Shown piece by piece: positions 1 to 12,621 of a stretch of DNA of 12,727 nt (position 1 is the stretch's first letter; each line of letters begins with the position of its first letter). The stretch spans positions 1 through 12,727 of the forward strand of contig JADZCL010000288.1 of NCBI GenBank assembly GCA_020851615.1. Reading direction: 5' to 3'. The position numbers and the translations under genes were made by a program. This DNA comes from Rubrivivax sp. (GTDB taxonomy: Bacteria > Pseudomonadota > Gammaproteobacteria > Burkholderiales > Burkholderiaceae_C). The notes below the pieces were generated by a model that saw only the letters and a list, made by a program, of their open reading frames with translations, did no database searches and had not been told where the DNA came from.

Positions 1-878
1 ACGAGGTAGGGCGAGCTCGTGTGGCGTGCCAGATGCGGCAGGTCGAGCTTGGTGCGCGGCGCCTCGTGCAGCATGACGTGGATCAGCGCGTAGAGGAAGG
101 CGGGGTCGGTCTTGGGCCGGATCGGCACCCACTTGGCCGAGCAGGCGCCGGTCACCGACAGATGCGGCTCGACCTGCACGCGCTTCATGCCGCGGATGCG
201 TGCATCGGCGTGGCGCCAGATGCCGACCACGCCGCCAGCGGCCTCGATGTTGTTGCCGCACGAGATCAGGTAGTTGCAGCTCGGGGTATCGGGTGCCACG
301 ATGAAGGCGCGGTGCCAGAGTTCCCCATACAGGTGCTCGGAGTGGTAGCACTTGACGCCCTGGCCTGAGCCGAAACCCATGTCCACCGGACCCCAGGCGG
401 CCAGGAAGGCCGGGAAGGTGCCCATGTAGAACTGCGGCGTGCCGCCGCCGCCGAAGCTGGCGGCCAGGCGCGGGTGGCCCGACGCGTTGGTCAAGCCTTC
501 GGTGCGCAGGCGATTGAGGCGCTCGGCGATGAGGTCGAAGGCCTCCTCCCAGGTGATGGGCACGAACGCCGGGTCTTCCTCGCGACCCTTCTTCGGGTTG
601 CTGCGCTTCATCGGCGTCAGCACGCGGTTGGGGTTGTACGTCTTCTGGACCAGGCCAAAGGCCTTCACGCAGACCTTGCCGCCCCCGGGATGCACGGCCG
701 CCGCGCAGAAGTTGGGCTCGACCTCGGTGGCCACGCCGTTCTCGACCTTGACCGTCAGCAGGTCGGGGCCGGCCACGCACTGATAGCAATAGGTCGGCAC
801 CCGCTTGGTGCCCTCGGGATCACGCGGCTTGCGCGAGGACGGCGTGACGGCAGCGCCGATCGCCTCCGGGGCGTTCAC
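1..878 (-). CDS. Molybdopterin oxidoreductase, DMSO reductase family (N-terminal part, runs off the window)
   Basis: About 292 N-terminal residues are visible; the catalytic remainder lies beyond position 1. I chose the GTG at 878-876 because it overlaps the upstream thioesterase stop (GTGA) and the frame stays open to the edge. Cysteines C31 and C34 (YCYQC), C58 and C70 (KVCVKAF) lie where the N-terminal [4Fe-4S] cluster of this family sits, but the usual third cysteine (C-x2-C-x3-C) is a proline (P38). C177 in the segment GVKCYHSEHLYGE is at the position of the molybdenum-ligating Cys/Sec/Ser. No twin-arginine signal is seen, so the protein is probably cytoplasmic. It likely carries out a redox step on a substrate or intermediate of the neighbouring CoA pathway, or passes electrons to it. 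The reaction is not identifiable from this part. Family assignment is fairly firm; the specific enzyme is unknown. Confidence 0.8.
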   Translation of the reverse strand, partial: MNAPEAIGAAVTPSSRKPRDPEGTKRVPTYCYQCVAGPDLLTVKVENGVATEVEPNFCAAAVHPGGGKVCVKAFGLVQKTYNPNRVLTPMKRSNPKKGREEDPAFVPITWEEAFDLIAERLNRLRTEGLTNASGHPRLAASFGGGGTPQFYMGTFPAFLAAWGPVDMGFGSGQGVKCYHSEHLYGELWHRAFIVAPDTPSCNYLISCGNNIEAAGGVVGIWRHADARIRGMKRVQVEPHLSVTGACSAKWVPIRPKTDPAFLYALIHVMLHEAPRTKLDLPHLARHTSSPYL

Positions 879-1282
879 GCCAGCCCCGCCTTCTGCGCCT
901 TGGCCGCCAGGCGCTGCTCGGTCTTGGCCACGTCGACGATGAAGCGCTGGTGACGGCACTTGAAGATGTCCTCGATGCCGTCGTTGCCGCTGACCTCGAA
1001 GGTCACGGCGCGGCCGTTGACCTCGACGATGCGTGCCTGCATGGTGACCTTCATGCCCATCAGGGTGGCCCCGGTGTGGTCGAGCTCGACGCGCGTGCCC
1101 ACCGAGTTCTCGCCCGCATCCAGGTGCTGCAGCAGCAGGTCGCGGCAGATGACTTCGACGTCGAACAGCACCATCGGCGTGCTGTAGACACGCACCTTCT
1201 CGCCCATGAAGTCGATCGTGCGCTCGCGGTCGATGGCGACGGCGGCCGTGGTGCTGACGCCGGCTTGCAGGCTGGATTTCAT
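875..1282 (-). CDS. Hot-dog fold acyl-CoA thioesterase, FlK-like
   Basis: This is a 135-residue protein of normal length for a single hot-dog domain. Fluoroacetyl-CoA thioesterase (FlK) uses Thr42, Glu50 and His76. Here T35 (YSTPM), E43 (FDVEV) and H69 (LDHTG) have identical spacing (8 and 26 residues), followed by the typical G-x-V-x-x-x-A and FEVSGNDG segments. It should hydrolyse an acyl-CoA in the cytoplasm. In a CoA-dependent catabolic cluster it may release CoA from dead-end or over-accumulated thioesters; the substrate is not readable. Start ATG at 1282-1280 is preceded by AGGAAG (complement of 1290-1295). Its stop overlaps the GTG of the molybdoenzyme by four bases, so the two are translationally coupled. 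Transcription is divergent from the Nfn-ligase operon. Confidence 0.8.
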   Translation of the reverse strand: MKSSLQAGVSTTAAVAIDRERTIDFMGEKVRVYSTPMVLFDVEVICRDLLLQHLDAGENSVGTRVELDHTGATLMGMKVTMQARIVEVNGRAVTFEVSGNDGIEDIFKCRHQRFIVDVAKTEQRLAAKAQKAGLA

Positions 1283-3984: not shown

Positions 3985-6117
3985 ATGTTGTGCCCCAAGT
4001 GCCATCGCCCCCTGGCCGACGAGAGCGAGGGCCCCTACATCTGCTGTGCCGACGCGCCAAGCGAATGGAAGTGCGGCGGCTGCGGCAAGGTCAGCGAGGG
4101 CTTTGCACTGCCCTATGGGCGCTGCCCGGATTGCGGCGGCAGCCTCGAACTGTGCGAGGACGCCCGCCCGACCCCGGTGGGCGGCGCACTGCGGGCGGTA
4201 CGCATGGCCTTCGAGATCGAGCTCGGCGGGCGGGCCTTCTACCAGCGTGCGGCGGCGCAGACCCAGGATCCGGCGCTGCGCCAGCTCTTCGGCCGCTTTG
4301 CCGTCATGGAAGGCGAGCACATGGAGACGCTCTCGCGGCGCTACCACGTCGACGTACCCGACCCGTCACCGGACTTCCGCGTCGAAGTGGCAGCGCTCTT
4401 TGCCGATGTGGCGCACCGGCCCGAGGACCCGGAAAACCTGTTCGCGATCGCGATCGGACTGGAGCAGCGCGCCGCGGCGTTCTTCACCGAGCATGCCGAG
4501 GCCGCCGCCGAAGGCTCGGCCGAGCGCGCGCTCTTTCGTGAGCTGGCGGCCGAGGAGCGCGAGCATGCGTTCACGCTGCAAACCGAGTTCGACCGCTGGC
4601 GCCAGGGCCGGCCCGGCCTGTTCGGTGGCAACGACCCGGTGCCCGCCACGTCGGCCGATGGCCTGATGAACGCCGCCGCGCTCCTGCTGCAGGGTCATGA
4701 TCCGCAGCGTGTGGCGCTGGTCTGCGGGGAGCACCGGCTCACGCACGGGGAGCTGCGTGACCGGGTGTCGCGCGCAGCTGCGTTGTGGCGCGCGCGCGGC
4801 CTGGAGCGCGGCCACCGGGTGGCCATCAAGCTGCCCGATGGCCTGGACTGGGTGGTGGCCTTCCTGGCCACGCTGTGGGCCGGCGGCACGGCGGTGGCCG
4901 TCAACCCCAAGGTGCCAGCGCCCGAGTGGCAGTACATCCTCGAGGAAGCCGGCTTCACGGTGATCCTTGCCGAATCGGCCGAGGACACGCCGGCCCCCTG
5001 GCGCGACAAGGTCGTGCGCGTGGATGAGGGGCGTCATCTGGTGTCTTCGATGGAGCCGGTGCCGCCGCGGCTGGTTGACCCCGATACACCCGCGTTCTGG
5101 GTGCATTCGTCGGGTACCTCGGGCAAGCCCAAGGCGGTGGTGCACGCGCATCGCTTCGCGCGCGAGATCGAGCGCGTCTCGCGCGAGCGCCTGGGCATCA
5201 CGCCCGATGACCGGTTGTTCGCGAGTTCGCGGCTGTTCTTCTCCTACCCGCAGACCAACAGCCTGTGGGCAGGCTTGAAGATCGGCGCCACCGTCGTGCT
5301 CGATCCGCAATGGCCGACGCCGCAGGGTGTGGCTGAGATCATCTCCGCTGGGCGGCCAACGGTGTTCTTCAGCGTGCCTTCGCTGTACCGGCTGCTGCTG
5401 GCCGAAGGCCTGGCACCGGAGATCCCGAAGGCCGGCGTGCGGCTGTGCGTATCTGCCGGCGAGGCGCTGCCGCAGAGCCTGCGCGACGCCTGGCGTGCGC
5501 AGACCGGACTGCCGATGGTCGATGGCTACGGCGCATCGGAGACCAACGTGCTCGTGCTGACCGCGCGTGAAGGGGACGACGGGCTGATGCCCTCACCCGG
5601 CGTCAAGGTCAGCGCGCTGGACGCCGACAGCGCCGCCGACGGCCGCCCCACGCGGCTGCGCTTCCGGCTCGATTGCCAGGCGCTGGGCTACCTCGATCGC
5701 CCGGCGTCACAGGCCGACAGCTTCCGCGATGGCGCCTTCTGCCCGGCCGACCTGTTCGTGGCCACCGAAGGCGGCGGCTGGCGCTTTGCCGGGCGCGAGG
5801 ACACGCTGCTGAAGATCAAGGGCCGCTGGGTCAACCTCAACGACATCGAGGAGCGCCTGAGCGCGGGCACGCCCGGGTTGATCGAGGGCGCTGCGGTGCG
5901 CATCTCCGACGCCGACGGCTTCGATACGCTGGCCTACTTCTACGTTGCCCGTGCCGGGCAGGGTGAGGCCGTCGAGCGGCTGCTGGCCGAACGCAGCCAG
6001 ACCTTGCCGCAGTACCAGCGCCCGCGCTGGCTGCAGCCGGTCGAGGCGATCCCGCGCACGGCGACCGGCAAGCTGCTGCGTCGCAAGCTCGCCGAGTTGC
6101 TCGGAGAGACCTCGTGA
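3985..6117 (+). CDS. Aryl-CoA ligase with N-terminal rubredoxin-like and rubrerythrin (di-iron) domains
   Basis: This 710-residue protein has three parts. Residues 1-57 form a zinc-ribbon/rubredoxin-like domain with CxxC pairs C3/C6, C30/C33 and C47/C50 plus C20/C21. Residues about 65-205 form a four-helix ferritin-like domain with a full di-iron ligand set: E79, E109/H112 (ExxH), E160, E191/H194 (ExxH). Having the rubredoxin part first is the order found in 'reverse' rubrerythrins. Residues about 225-710 form an AMP-forming ligase: ATP loop SSGTSGKPK (375-383), GYGASET (514-520), GRED (603-606) and catalytic K696 (TGK). The ligase part resembles the benzoate/hydroxybenzoate-CoA ligase group and should make an aryl- or alicyclic-CoA ester from acid, ATP and CoA. 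The attached domain probably reduces peroxide or senses oxygen. No internal stop or start divides the parts. RBS GGAG is at 3972-3975. The exact acid is unknown. Confidence 0.88.
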   Translation: MLCPKCHRPLADESEGPYICCADAPSEWKCGGCGKVSEGFALPYGRCPDCGGSLELCEDARPTPVGGALRAVRMAFEIELGGRAFYQRAAAQTQDPALRQLFGRFAVMEGEHMETLSRRYHVDVPDPSPDFRVEVAALFADVAHRPEDPENLFAIAIGLEQRAAAFFTEHAEAAAEGSAERALFRELAAEEREHAFTLQTEFDRWRQGRPGLFGGNDPVPATSADGLMNAAALLLQGHDPQRVALVCGEHRLTHGELRDRVSRAAALWRARGLERGHRVAIKLPDGLDWVVAFLATLWAGGTAVAVNPKVPAPEWQYILEEAGFTVILAESAEDTPAPWRDKVVRVDEGRHLVSSMEPVPPRLVDPDTPAFWVHSSGTSGKPKAVVHAHRFAREIERVSRERLGITPDDRLFASSRLFFSYPQTNSLWAGLKIGATVVLDPQWPTPQGVAEIISAGRPTVFFSVPSLYRLLLAEGLAPEIPKAGVRLCVSAGEALPQSLRDAWRAQTGLPMVDGYGASETNVLVLTAREGDDGLMPSPGVKVSALDADSAADGRPTRLRFRLDCQALGYLDRPASQADSFRDGAFCPADLFVATEGGGWRFAGREDTLLKIKGRWVNLNDIEERLSAGTPGLIEGAAVRISDADGFDTLAYFYVARAGQGEAVERLLAERSQTLPQYQRPRWLQPVEAIPRTATGKLLRRKLAELLGETS

Positions 6118-6932
6118 GCGCGGCGTCCGCCGCGACGGCGGGTGACGACTCCAGGCTGCAGGTGCGGCGCGAGGGTGCAGCGCTGGTCGTGACGCTGAAC
6201 CGCGCACCGGTGAATGCGGTCGATGACCGCCTGCTGGTCGAGCTCGATGCTGCAATCGACCTCGCCGAAGCCGACGAAGGCATCTGCATCCTGCATCTGC
6301 GCAGCGCGCACAAGGTCTTCTGCGCCGGCGCCGACCTGGACTTGATGCGCTCCTCCATCGCCACTCCGGCGGGCCGCAACCGCATGGTCGCGGTGGTGCA
6401 GGAGATGCAACGCGTCTTCGCGCGCCTGGAGAACCTGCCCTGCGTGACGCTGGCCGAGATTGGCGGCGCCGCGCTGGGTGGCGGCTTCGAGATGGCGCTG
6501 GCCTGCGACTGGCGCTTTGCTGCCGACGAGGCGCGGGTCGGCCTGCCCGAAGCGGGTCTGGGCCTGCTGGCCGCAGCCGGTGGCACCCAGCGCCTCACCC
6601 AGCTGGTCGGCGTCGGAACGGCACGCCGGCTGATCCTGGGCAGCGAGACGCTGACGGGGCAGGAGGCGCGCACGCTGGGCCTGGTGCAGTGGTCGGTGCC
6701 ACGGGCGCAGCTGGCCGAGGCGGCACAGGCGCTCGTCGCGCGCTGCACCGCGCTGCCGCGACACACGCTGGCCGAGACCAAGCGCTGCATCGCACTGGCT
6801 GCGGCAACCCGCGGCGATGGCTTCGCCGCCGAGATCGCCGCCACCCGGCGCCTCTACGATCACCCCGAGACCCGCCGCCGCGTTTCGGCCTTCCTCGACA
6901 AGAGCTCAACCCCCCACAAGGAGAAAACATGA
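6114..6932 (+). CDS. Enoyl-CoA hydratase (crotonase family)
   Basis: This 272-residue protein is a normal crotonase length. It has oxyanion-hole segments FCAGADL and GGAALGGG and both acid/base glutamates of true hydratases, E126 (GGFEMALACD) and E146 (LPEAGLG), 20 residues apart as in rat enoyl-CoA hydratase (Glu144/Glu164), followed by GGTQRL. It should hydrate a 2-enoyl- or cyclic dienoyl-CoA to the 3-hydroxyacyl-CoA, the step just before the dehydrogenase encoded next. The GTG start at 6114 overlaps the ligase stop (GTGA) and is preceded by GGAGAG (6103-6108), indicating translational coupling. The 3' end overlaps the next start (ATGA). The first ~15 residues are Ala/Ser-rich and outside the fold. 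Confidence 0.85.
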   Translation: MSAASAATAGDDSRLQVRREGAALVVTLNRAPVNAVDDRLLVELDAAIDLAEADEGICILHLRSAHKVFCAGADLDLMRSSIATPAGRNRMVAVVQEMQRVFARLENLPCVTLAEIGGAALGGGFEMALACDWRFAADEARVGLPEAGLGLLAAAGGTQRLTQLVGVGTARRLILGSETLTGQEARTLGLVQWSVPRAQLAEAAQALVARCTALPRHTLAETKRCIALAAATRGDGFAAEIAATRRLYDHPETRRRVSAFLDKSSTPHKEKT

Positions 6933-7675
6933 CGCTGAAGAACAAGCTCGCGGTCGTCACCGGTGCCGCATCGGGCATCGGGCGCGCCACCGCTGGTGCA
7001 CTGGCCGCTGCCGGTGCAAAGGTGATCGTTGCCGACATCGCCGCGGAAGCCGGCGAGAAGGCTGCGGCCGAACTGCGCGCCGCCGGCCACCAGGCCGCGT
7101 ACCTGGGCGTGGACATGACAGACGACGCGTCGATCGCCGCCTTTGCCGATGCCCTGAAGGCGACGCACGGCGCGGCCGACATCCTCGTCAACGCCGCCGG
7201 CTGGGGCCGCACCGCGCCCTTCTGGGAGGGCACGCCGGACTTCTGGAGCAAGGTCATCGCGCTGAACTTCGTGGGCCCGATGAGCCTGACCAAGGCGCTG
7301 CTGCCGGCGATGATGGAGCGCAGCCAGGGCAAGATCGTCAACGTATCCAGCGACGCCGGGCGCGTGGGCAGCCTGGGCGAGACCGTGTACGCCGGCGCCA
7401 AGGGCGGCTTGATCGCCTTCACCAAGTCGCTGGCGCGCGAGGTCTCGCGCTACAAGATCAACGTCAACTGCGTCTGCCCCGGGCCCACCGACACGCCCCT
7501 GATGGCCGCCGTGCCCGACAAGGTGAAGGACGCGCTCGTCAAGGCCATCCCGTTGCGGCGCCTGGGCCAGCCGCAGGAGGTGGCCGATGCCATCGTCTTC
7601 TTCTGCAGCCCCAATTCCGACTACGTCACCGGACAGGTGCTGAGCGTCAGCGGCGGCCTTACCATGGTGGGGTGA
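6929..7675 (+). CDS. Short-chain dehydrogenase, BadH-like 3-hydroxyacyl-CoA dehydrogenase
   Basis: This 248-residue classical SDR has the coenzyme motif TGAASGIG (11-18), D36 at the end of beta-2 (favours NAD over NADP), and the catalytic set S141, Y154, K158 with S-to-Y spacing of 13. By memory it resembles BadH of Rhodopseudomonas palustris (2-hydroxycyclohexanecarboxyl-CoA dehydrogenase) in NAAGW/NNAGW, the SDA-RVGS-GE-VYA segment, CPGPTDT and the C-terminus GQVLSVSGGLTM. It probably oxidises a ring 3-hydroxyacyl-CoA to the ketone with NAD. The ATG overlaps the hydratase stop (ATGA), with AAGGAG at 6918-6923 as RBS. The generic label 3-oxoacyl-ACP reductase is less likely in this context. 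Confidence 0.85.
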   Translation: MTLKNKLAVVTGAASGIGRATAGALAAAGAKVIVADIAAEAGEKAAAELRAAGHQAAYLGVDMTDDASIAAFADALKATHGAADILVNAAGWGRTAPFWEGTPDFWSKVIALNFVGPMSLTKALLPAMMERSQGKIVNVSSDAGRVGSLGETVYAGAKGGLIAFTKSLAREVSRYKINVNCVCPGPTDTPLMAAVPDKVKDALVKAIPLRRLGQPQEVADAIVFFCSPNSDYVTGQVLSVSGGLTMVG

Positions 7676-8231: not shown

Positions 8232-9050
8232 ATGAAGCGACTGCAACTCGCCGGCTACAAGGCCAAGTATTTCGAATATTCCGCCAGTGGCAAGGTGGCC
8301 ACCATCCGCCTGAACCGCCCTGATCGCAAGAATCCGCTCACCTTCGACTCCTACGGCGAGCTGCGCGACCTCTTCCGCGAGATGTGCTACGCCACCGATA
8401 TCAAGGCCATCGTCTTCACCGGCGACGGCGGCAACTTCTGCAGTGGCGGCGACGTGCACGAGATCATCGGCCCGCTGGTCAAGATGGACATGCCCGAACT
8501 GCTCGAGTTCACGCGCATGACCGGCGACCTCGTCAAGGCGATGCGCATGTGCCCGCAACCCATCATCGCCGCCATCGACGGCGTCTGCACCGGCGCCGGC
8601 GCAATGATCGCCTGCGGCTCCGACATGCGCGTGGCCACCGCGCGCAGCAAGCTGGCCTTCCTGTTCGTGCGCGTGGGCCTGGCCGGCGCCGACATGGGGG
8701 CATGCACGCTGCTGCCGCGCCTCATCGGCCTGTCGCGTGCGGCCGACCTGCTCTTCACCGGACGCGTCGTCGGGGGTGAGGAAGCGGCGCAGATGGGCTT
8801 CTACAACCGCCTTGTCGACCCCGAGCAGCTGCTGGCGCAGGCGCAGGAACTGGCGCAGAGCCTGGCCGATGGCCCGACCTTCGGCCACGCCATGACCAAG
8901 ACCATGCTGTGGCAGGAGTGGAACGCGGGTCTGGGCGAGTGCATCGAGGCTGAAGCGCAGGCGCAGGCCATCTGCATGCAGACCAAGGACTTCGAACGCG
9001 CCTACCACGCCTTCGCGGCCAAGCAGAAGCCGGTCTTCGAAGGCGACTGA
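8232..9050 (+). CDS. Crotonase-family protein lacking the hydratase glutamates
   Basis: This 272-residue protein has the crotonase core ([23 protein letters not shown]). Aligned to the upstream hydratase, the two catalytic glutamates become M125 and F145, so ordinary enoyl-CoA hydration is unlikely. D154, in [15 protein letters not shown], lies where dienoyl-CoA isomerases carry their catalytic Asp (AADVGTLQRLP), although the partner Glu is missing. Possible roles are double-bond isomerisation, C-C hydrolysis of a beta-keto ring or another crotonase chemistry. The C-terminal half ([30 protein letters not shown]) reminds me of crotonases found in CoA-dependent aminobenzoate/benzoate clusters; this is recollection, not a search. 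I chose ATG 8232, with ACGAGGA upstream, over an earlier in-frame start that overlaps the previous gene. Confidence 0.8.
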
Positions 9051-9053
9051 CGG

Positions 9054-10262
9054 ATGCCCGCCGTCGCGCCCACCAACCTCGCCTGGCCGTTCTTCGACGA
9101 GGGGCACCGCGCCCTCGTCGTGCAGCTCGAAGCCTGGATTGCCGACGAGCTGCCGACCCTGCTGCACGGGTCCGAGGACAGCCTGGATGCCTGCTACGCC
9201 TGCGTGCAGCGCTTGGTGCGCTCGCTCGGGCGGGCTGGCCTGCTGCGCTGCTGCGTGCCGCAGGCGCAGGGGGGGCTGCGCGAGTCCTTCGACGTGCGCA
9301 GCGTGGCGCTGGCGCGCGAGACGCTGGCGCGCGCGTCGGGCCTGGCGGATTTCGCGCTGGCGATGCAGGGCCTGGGCAGTGCGCCGGTCACGCTGTTCGG
9401 CAACGCCGCACAGCAGGCGGCGTTGCTGCCCGGAGTGGCCGAGGGCCGCTTGATCACGGCCTTTGCGCTCTCCGAGCCCGACGCCGGGTCCGATGTGGCC
9501 GCGATGAGCGCCACGGCCACCCGCCTGCCCGCAGGGGGCTGGCGGCTGGATGGGGTCAAGACCTGGATCTCCAACGCCGGCCTGGCCGACCACTACGTCG
9601 TCTTCGCGCGCAGCGGCGAGGCGCCCGGTGCACGGGGTATCTCGGCCTTCATGGTCGACGCCCGCACGCCAGGGCTCGACGCCAGCGAGCGCATCCCGGT
9701 GATCGCGCCGCATCCGCTGGGGCTCGTCAAATTGAACGACTGCCGTGTTGGTGACGACGCTCTGCTGGGCGAAGCCGGCGGCGGATTCAAGATCGCCATG
9801 GGCACGCTCGACAGCTTCCGCACCACCGTTGGCGCGGCGGCACTGGGCTTCGGGCGGCGTGCCCTGGACGAAGCGCTGCAGCGCGTGCATGCGCGGCGCA
9901 TGTTCGGCAAGACGCTTGCCGACTTCCAGATGACACAGCAGAAGATCGGCCAGATGGCGGTGGCGCTGGATGCCTCGGCGCTCATGGTCTATCGCGCCGG
10001 CTGGACCAAGGACGTGCAGCGCGTGCGCGTCACGCGCGAGGCGTCGATGGCCAAGCTCTACGCCACCGAAGCGGCGCAGAAGGTGATCGACGACGCGGTG
10101 CAGCTCTTCGGCGGCCTGGGCGTCGTGCAGGGCTCGGTCGTCGAGCGCCTGTACCGCGAGATCCGCGCCCTGCGCATCTACGAAGGCGCAAGCGAAGTGC
10201 TGGAGCTCATCGTCGGCGCACGAACGCTGCAAGACGCATTGACGCCGCGCCAGAACGCGTGA
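9054..10262 (+). CDS. Acyl-CoA dehydrogenase
   Basis: This 402-residue protein is the usual length of the short/medium-chain family. It contains the FAD/substrate-binding segments [11 protein letters not shown] and TWISNAG, a C-terminal helical domain ([14 protein letters not shown]), QLFGGLGV and the catalytic base E377 in IYEGASEV, the same position as Glu376 of medium-chain dehydrogenase. It should introduce an alpha-beta double bond into a saturated or cyclic acyl-CoA, with electrons leaving through electron-transfer flavoprotein (not in the window). It starts 3 bp after the crotonase stop, with only a weak ribosome site, so translational coupling is likely. It ends the operon. A seven-G run at 9269-9275 lies inside an inverted repeat in the coding sequence. 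Confidence 0.88.
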
Positions 10263-12141: not shown

Positions 12142-12621
12142 TCAGGCGCCGGTGGCGTAGGTGAAGGCGAGTTCGCGGTCGGTGTCGTCGTCCAGCAGGT
12201 CCTCCAGGAGCGGCAGCAGCGCCATCGTCTCCTTCTGGATGTGGGCGACCTGCCGTTCGACGAGTTCCTTGGCCAGGCGCACCAGCGTCGGACGATCGCC
12301 GGCGGCCAGGCTGCCGGCGGCAAGCTGCTCGGCCAGCGGGCGCAACTCGTCGGCGACCATGCGGATCGTGCCGTGCTCCTCGGCCAGCAGGGAAGCCAGC
12401 TCGCCGTCGCCGGCTTCCATCATGCGCGGGAAGAGCTCACCTTCCTCGAAGCCGAAGTGGTGGCCGATCTCGTGCTCGAGCTGGCGCAACAGCGGCGTGG
12501 CCAGCTTGTCCAGGGCCGCCGCGTCACCGCTCGTGAGGGCATGACCGACGCGGTCGAGCAGGTCGATGCTGCTGCGGTGCTCGTCGTCGAGCTGGCGGGA
12601 AACCTGGCGCGTGAAAGTCAT
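12142..12621 (-). CDS. Hemerythrin-like HHE-domain protein
   Basis: This 159-residue helical protein has hemerythrin-type iron ligands: H15 (DDEHR), H54/H55 with E59 (GHHFGFEEGELFP), H83 (AEEHGTIR) and the HIQKE-ALLP motif in the last helix. Such proteins bind oxygen or nitric oxide or repair iron centres at a non-heme di-iron site; which of these applies is not readable. It is cytoplasmic with no signal peptide. The start ATG (12621-12619) has a modest GGACGA ribosome site. It is probably the first gene of a two-gene unit with the tandem GNAT. Confidence 0.8.
   Translation of the reverse strand: MTFTRQVSRQLDDEHRSSIDLLDRVGHALTSGDAAALDKLATPLLRQLEHEIGHHFGFEEGELFPRMMEAGDGELASLLAEEHGTIRMVADELRPLAEQLAAGSLAAGDRPTLVRLAKELVERQVAHIQKETMALLPLLEDLLDDDTDRELAFTYATGA

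Follow-up and report, generated by a model that had tools for sequence, protein, structure and literature searches.

In reverse rubrerythrins, a rubredoxin-like Cys4 site comes first in the chain and a di-iron domain follows. An NADH-linked O2/H2O2 reductase activity has been described for these proteins (PMC7482061), and the di-iron hemerythrins of C. jejuni are reported to protect the FeS oxidoreductases Por and Oor (PMC4257069). For Aromatoleum aromaticum, 4-hydroxybenzoate is described as being taken up by the ligase Hcl2 and then by HcrABC (PMC10715001). A practical question here is how bacteria of the oxic-anoxic border keep their benzoyl-CoA and 4-hydroxybenzoyl-CoA reductases working. 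Titles and abstract beginnings found in the open-licence literature do not name the fusion described below. Rubrerythrin together with benzoate-CoA ligase gave nothing in the same literature, and the passages that it gave for rubrerythrin together with 4-hydroxybenzoyl-CoA reductase do not connect the two.

The window, that is, the whole stretch of 12,727 nucleotides analyzed here (Rubrivivax sp., assembly GCA_020851615.1, contig JADZCL010000288.1), encodes a protein in which a Cys-rich region and a di-iron domain, together termed the module, precede an AMP-forming aryl-CoA ligase (Table 1). One ATG-to-stop frame of 710 codons spans all of these parts, as the initial annotation had claimed, and the same frame recurs in other genomes. 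PF02915 (Rubrerythrin) matched residues 73-198 with 30.9 bits (cut-off, 22.8), and two ExxH motifs plus two Glu ligands accompany this score; the six di-iron ligands were found where they had been placed and are conserved. PF00501 (AMP-binding) matched residues 239-548 with 201.1 bits (cut-off, 29.9), and the catalytic Lys is K696, which agrees with the complete ligase described earlier and with membership of the ANL family.

Table 1. Features of the window and of the fusion gene that it carries
Feature	Positions	Strand	Basis or remark
Molybdopterin oxidoreductase, end-truncated	3..878	-	83% identical to that of locus L014 over 272 aa
FlK-type thioesterase	875..1282	-	PF22636
SudAB/NfnAB-like NAD(P)H oxidoreductase, 777 aa	1603..3936	+	Matches NF009413 positions 3-761
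Fusion gene: Cys ribbon, di-iron domain, and AMP-forming aryl-CoA ligase	3985..6117	+	710 aa
Fusion residues 1-55, eight-Cys region	3985..4149	+	Cys conservation
Fusion residues 67-206, four-helix ferritin-like di-iron domain	4183..4602	+	Ligands E79, E109, H112, E160, E191, H194
Fusion residues 207-228, linker	4603..4668	+	Sequence and length variable
Fusion residues 229-710, AMP-forming ligase, benzoate-CoA ligase-like, K696	4669..6114	+	Pfam, NCBIfam, solved relatives
Enoyl-CoA hydratase/isomerase family; overlaps the stop of the fusion	6114..6932	+	Pfam
Short-chain dehydrogenase	6929..7675	+	Best NCBIfam BadH-like TIGR03206, 272.9 bits, below cut-off 431.2
Second ferritin-like protein, stand-alone, 165 aa	7684..8181	+	PF02915, 38.7 bits
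Enoyl-CoA hydratase family protein	8232..9050	+	Over NF006107 cut-off
Acyl-CoA dehydrogenase	9054..10262	+	Pfam, NCBIfam
Hemerythrin HHE protein	12142..12621	-	PF01814

Two details of the module departed from its first description as a rubredoxin-like ribbon followed by a rubrerythrin domain. A Cys4 set is present, but the eight conserved cysteines form two sets (C3/C6 with C20/C21, and C30/C33 with C47/C50) and not one ribbon. The second set (C30-C50) is similar to PF21349, the rubredoxin-like domain of rubrerythrins, with a score below the cut-off, and the first (C3-C21) we take, by motif only, to be similar to a desulforedoxin site. The rubrerythrin identity holds at the level of PF02915, but at the place that we take, by spacing and not by alignment to a canonical sequence, to be that of the seventh ligand of canonical rubrerythrins (a Glu of the third helix), Ala163 was found in all 120 listed homologues. 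The four PDB sequence matches included no canonical rubrerythrin, an absence that rules nothing out, and a fold search with the module alone (single-sequence model, pLDDT 75.1) returned generic ferritin-fold matches, none of them at E<=0.001. Ligases dominated the fold search with the whole-fusion model. The best solved relatives of the ligase part are benzoate- and anthranilate-CoA ligases, and it scored 256.0 bits against TIGR02262, the benzoate-CoA ligase family, for which the cut-off is 375.25.

The fusion, initially regarded as an unusual combination, is real, but it is a recurrent Burkholderiales family and not a one-off. 781 of the 7997 candidate proteins scored matched its N-terminal part, and PF00501 was present in all 120 that were listed, i.e., the window's own protein and 119 others; many of these homologues are named acyl-coenzyme A synthetase/rubrerythrin by one source. 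E79 was retained in 119 of the 120 (Asp in the other), the remaining five ligands in all 120, and K696 in 114 (five gaps, one Met). Among 52 fused genes taken from loci, the same five ligands were retained in 52, E79 in 51 (one gap), and K696 in 50 (two gaps). Against loci L007, L008, and L009, dN/dS was 0.17, 0.11, and 0.16 for the di-iron part and 0.12, 0.12, and 0.14 for the ligase part, and both halves of the fusion are under purifying selection. Because the fusion recurs across proteins and loci and is under selection in both halves, a frameshift, a chimera, a chance frame, or another artefact is ruled out.

The GTDB collection gave 206 confirmed matches, of which the best 80 made up our locus sample. 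At 49 of these 80 loci the module and the ligase shared one frame; at the 31 loci without the ligase, the module shared a frame with SudAB (14) or was encoded next to it (17). Outside the fusion, the module is thus the C-terminal domain of a SudAB/NfnAB-like oxidoreductase or its next gene. Titles of the fused records read Burkholderiales or one of its families, unresolved Proteobacteria, or uncultured; one further record is an Anaerolineales MAG contig whose fusion is nearly identical to an Aquabacterium one. Ramlibacter lithotrophicus RBP-1 (L017) is an example of a carrier that can be cultured. The gene on the MAG contigs L018 (Anaerolineales) and L081 (Chitinophaga) is nearly identical to Burkholderiales ones, and both contigs are probably mis-binned. 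In a sample of 349 genomes from the family of the window, 17 had the module and 12 had it fused to a ligase; the latter count leaves out the copy of G091, which ends with its contig. An order-level search of 399 genomes, with only four candidates scored per genome, gave one unfused relative (55%) besides the window's own genome, and tblastn against 72,556 plasmid records (E<=1e-60) gave no plasmid-borne copies.

The genomic company of the fusion points to anaerobic aromatic degradation. In relatives, a shared order starts with an FlK thioesterase, a molybdopterin oxidoreductase with FeS and membrane subunits, PaaK (608.6 bits, slightly below the 646.3 of TIGR02155), and HcrC-HcrA-HcrB, continues with (often) SudAB, the fusion, and (often) ECH-SDR-ferritin-like-ECH-acyl-CoA dehydrogenase, and ends with a membrane protein lacking a Pfam match, a hemerythrin, and GNAT, followed in some by ferredoxin-BcrDABC-Dch. 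The molybdopterin oxidoreductase and its subunits, which reach no NCBIfam equivalog, are presumably PadBCD-like, the truncated gene of the window PadB-like, and the membrane protein NnrS-like. Genes of relatives were called with our own hexamer-based caller plus BLAST to named references, so small or divergent ones may be missed. The hemerythrin gene, together with a tandem-GNAT gene, accompanies the cluster in many relatives. The second ferritin-like protein of the window also occurs at L098 (160-699), L120, L122, L124, and L135, and paralogues of it adjoin KorAB-like 2-oxoacid oxidoreductase genes in the window's own genome, G262, G095, G190, and G693.

SudAB was the gene directly upstream of the fusion in 23 of 47 cases and HcrB or HcrA in 16 (14 and 2, respectively), a genomic link to 4-hydroxybenzoyl-CoA reductase (HCR). 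Some Hcr gene was present on 28 of 50 fusion loci; 17 of the 50, several of them short contigs, showed no Hcr, Pad, Bcr, or Pps gene. Genome G184 has HcrA, HcrB, HcrC, BcrA-D, and Dch all over NCBIfam cut-offs, and a distance of 25-31 kb separates the fusion from BcrB on a shared contig in G184, G095, G262, and G190. In the 349-genome family sample, BcrB occurred in 10 of 12 fusion-bearing genomes, the other two having none over the cut-off, versus 9 of 337 others (328 had neither; Fisher 9e-13, uncorrected for phylogeny). This neighborhood supports the earlier proposal that the N-terminal part detoxifies peroxide or oxygen beside an oxygen-sensitive pathway.

The window's own genome is 76% complete, in 435 contigs. 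BcrCBAD and a ferredoxin are on one contig (C403), Oah, Dch, KorAB-like genes, and a ferritin-like paralogue on another (C313), and a separate benzoate-CoA ligase (799.6 bits; cut-off, 375.25) on a third (C23). No Hcr gene adjoins the fusion in the window, and all that the genome shows of this set is HcrC plus an hcrA cut off after its first 37 positions, where contig C44 ends. A second fusion spans contigs C209 and C336, which have an identical 127-base end in common, and adjoins a PNPOx-like gene, a XylR_N/V4R sigma-54 regulator, and genes with PEP-utilizers and PPDK_N domains, which we regard as like those of phenylphosphate synthase (PpsA/PpsB). The pps-ppc cluster of A. aromaticum is described as flanked by the regulator pheR (PMC10715001).

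Judged from sequence and gene context, the ligase is most likely a 4-hydroxybenzoate-CoA ligase of the anaerobic phenol/4-hydroxyphenyl/benzoyl-CoA pathway, because HcrB often precedes the fusion or phenol-activation-like genes adjoin it, and HcrB is also the fusion partner of 16 related ligases (P0122-P0137), which share 54-61% identity with that of the window. The separate benzoate-CoA ligase of the window's own genome speaks for the same assignment. The di-iron motif was found in none of these 16; the 14 long enough for the tree form one branch. Such fusions tie the ligase to 4-hydroxybenzoyl-CoA reductase, and at L037 (4104-7061) HcrB, di-iron domain, and ligase form a triple fusion in one frame. 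A more distant HcrB-ligase fusion may be P0143. A function is thereby suggested for a family of ligases with no more than generic database names.

The N-terminus of the fusion matches NF009413 positions 799-1005, and the SudAB-like gene that matches the preceding part of this model ends 48 bases upstream. The window thus splits over two genes (1345.9 and 287.9 bits) what the model, at 1895 bits, has in one chain. By analogy with characterized proteins, the combination of Cys4 and di-iron sites with an adjoining NAD(P)H oxidoreductase points to an O2/H2O2-reducing activity. This role looks general to oxygen-labile ferredoxin systems, because the invariant residues of the module are identical with or without the ligase and because the gene after SudAB and a separate module is PFOR-type at 10 and, in our naming, IPOR-like at 1 of the 17 such loci. 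The PFOR-type gene of L075 had TIGR02176 as its top model (1744.2 bits). SudAB and a free module lie directly 5' of a pyruvate:ferredoxin oxidoreductase-type gene at L060, L065, L067, L069, L072, L075, L081, L082, L083, and L086; this set is likely a guard operon of its own.

We give about even chances to the explanation that the fusion is a putative NAD(P)H-fed O2/H2O2 guard joined, through operon adjacency, to a probable 4-hydroxybenzoate-CoA ligase, with all catalysis predicted from genes. The N-terminus of the ligase would be a portable electron-transfer and di-iron module, in which electrons would pass from NAD(P)H via the flavin/FeS centres of SudAB to the rubredoxin-like Cys4 site and on to the di-iron site. 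The latter would reduce O2 and/or H2O2 to water near 4-hydroxybenzoyl-CoA reductase, benzoyl-CoA reductase, and ferredoxin. Fusion by adjacency would give a one-to-one, co-localised supply of the guard, and the ligase reaction itself would need no module. Full-length SudAB is missing from 5 of the 12 fusion-bearing genomes (no match at E<=1e-150 in G262, G190, G098, and G316; a partial match, 57%, in G016), and therefore SudAB cannot in every case be the electron donor. Also at odds with the guard are the Ala at the presumed seventh-ligand place, the fusion loci without Hcr, Pad, Bcr, or Pps genes (the window, too, has no Hcr gene next to its fusion), the two fusion-bearing genomes with no BcrB over the cut-off, and the ligases within the fused clade that lack the module. 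In an exploratory, post hoc count made by hand, with three contig-edge rows and L015 dropped, damage to the first Cys set was seen in 6 of the 26 fusions whose locus lacks SudAB and in none of the 22 whose locus has it (Fisher 0.025, or 0.052 once the HcrB triple fusion is removed; a rougher count gave 0.050).

Phylogenies of the two halves bear on the origin of the fusion. In the module tree, rows in which module and ligase are fused need four label changes, and constraining them together was not rejected (AU p 0.0955, or 0.424 with the stand-alone module of L063 added; four long-branch rows and one contig-truncated row were left out of the test). In the ligase tree, rooted on two other ligases of the window's own genome, one branch of 58 (SH-aLRT 96) takes in 50 of the 51 fused rows, the exception being L046; unfused and HcrB-fused ligases branch outside it and some unfused ones inside. 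Starred branches of this tree force at least seven label changes, so losses, or annotated starts placed too late, are needed. Among 73 proteins of <560 aa checked, P0176 and P0232 are pieces of fused genes; rows labeled as ligase alone comprise 17 such short proteins plus the ligase of G693, and this count is an upper estimate because it includes P0176. P0199 carries an N-terminal Cys-ribbon remnant before the ligase, with no di-iron domain, and is probably a fossil of module loss. We infer that the fusion likely arose when the linker between SudAB and module acquired a stop and the one between module and ligase was lost.

Such an origin raises the question of whether the ligase benefits at all. 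With SudAB directly upstream in 23 of 47 fusions, the module lost from some ligases (P0199 keeping its Cys remnant only), and, at L016, the tail of a second module immediately before a fused gene, the fusion could be a harmless read-through product whose module works as it formerly did in SudAB. This is doubtful, since the fusion has been kept across one wide clade and also where SudAB is gone. A covalent one-to-one link with an entry enzyme, with ligands kept in 52 of 52 fused genes, gaps aside, might instead reflect a redox gate, the alternative that the initial annotation had offered. In it, the di-iron site would sense O2, peroxide, or iron and switch the ligase, which would close the anaerobic benzoyl-CoA route to 4-hydroxybenzoate whenever oxygen is present. 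As an oxygen switch, a module oxidised by O2 or peroxide would hold the ligase off and leave 4-hydroxybenzoate for aerobic ring cleavage, and a SudAB-reduced module would start the anaerobic route. We consider the gate, and equally this switch, unlikely: the linker varies in length and sequence, which argues against tight coupling, related ligases are HcrB-fused without the module, unfused ligases of the same clade exist, and the module's invariant residues do not change when the ligase is absent.

For aryl-CoA substrates, BoxB-type enzymes offer the comparison with an oxygenase, and the position of a di-iron site next to an aryl-CoA-forming enzyme would suit one that hydroxylates or epoxidises the product of the ligase in their manner. 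The same site, however, occurs with SudAB and PFOR-type genes, and 28 of the 31 ligase-less loci show no Hcr, Pad, Bcr, or Pps genes, so that an oxygenase is hardly credible. The module could also serve HCR, ferredoxin, or FeS assembly as a source of electrons or iron, and not reduce O2. Generic ferritin-fold matches, e.g., to bacterioferritin and Dps, are in keeping with such a relay or store, as is P0147, which unites a GltD-like reductase and an HcrB-like FAD subunit in one protein and so links the reductase type to the HCR family. Values quoted for the rubredoxin-type centres of studied rubrerythrins (+185 to +281 mV; PMC7482061) would make them poor donors for ring reduction, and we regard this role as very unlikely.

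With the oxygen and peroxide guard as the preferred reading, the interpretation in the initial annotation is partly supported. The fusion offers candidates for a protective module and for its electron donor, together with a site where the protection would act, and it shows a path by which a module of an NAD(P)H oxidoreductase came onto a catabolic ligase. Among known systems, NF009413/PRK12775 describes a SudAB-like oxidoreductase with a C-terminal ferritin-like domain; that domain corresponds to the module and the rest to the upstream gene, but the module is joined to the oxidoreductase there and to a CoA ligase here. Rubrerythrins and reverse rubrerythrins are alike in PF02915 and in the Cys4 rubredoxin-like site before the di-iron domain, whereas the fusion has Ala at the presumed seventh-ligand place, an extra Cys set, and an attached ligase. 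The TIGR02262 family and Hcl2 of A. aromaticum, as described (PMC10715001), share fold, motifs, and place in the pathway with the ligase part, which differs in its score below the family cut-off and in being joined to a di-iron module. In the flavodiiron-rubredoxin-reductase fusion described from Trichomonas (PMC9364112), di-iron and rubredoxin parts are likewise joined with an NAD(P)H reductase and turn O2 into water; that protein has a flavodiiron core, not a ferritin-like one, and no catabolic enzyme attached, whereas here the reductase is joined through gene adjacency.
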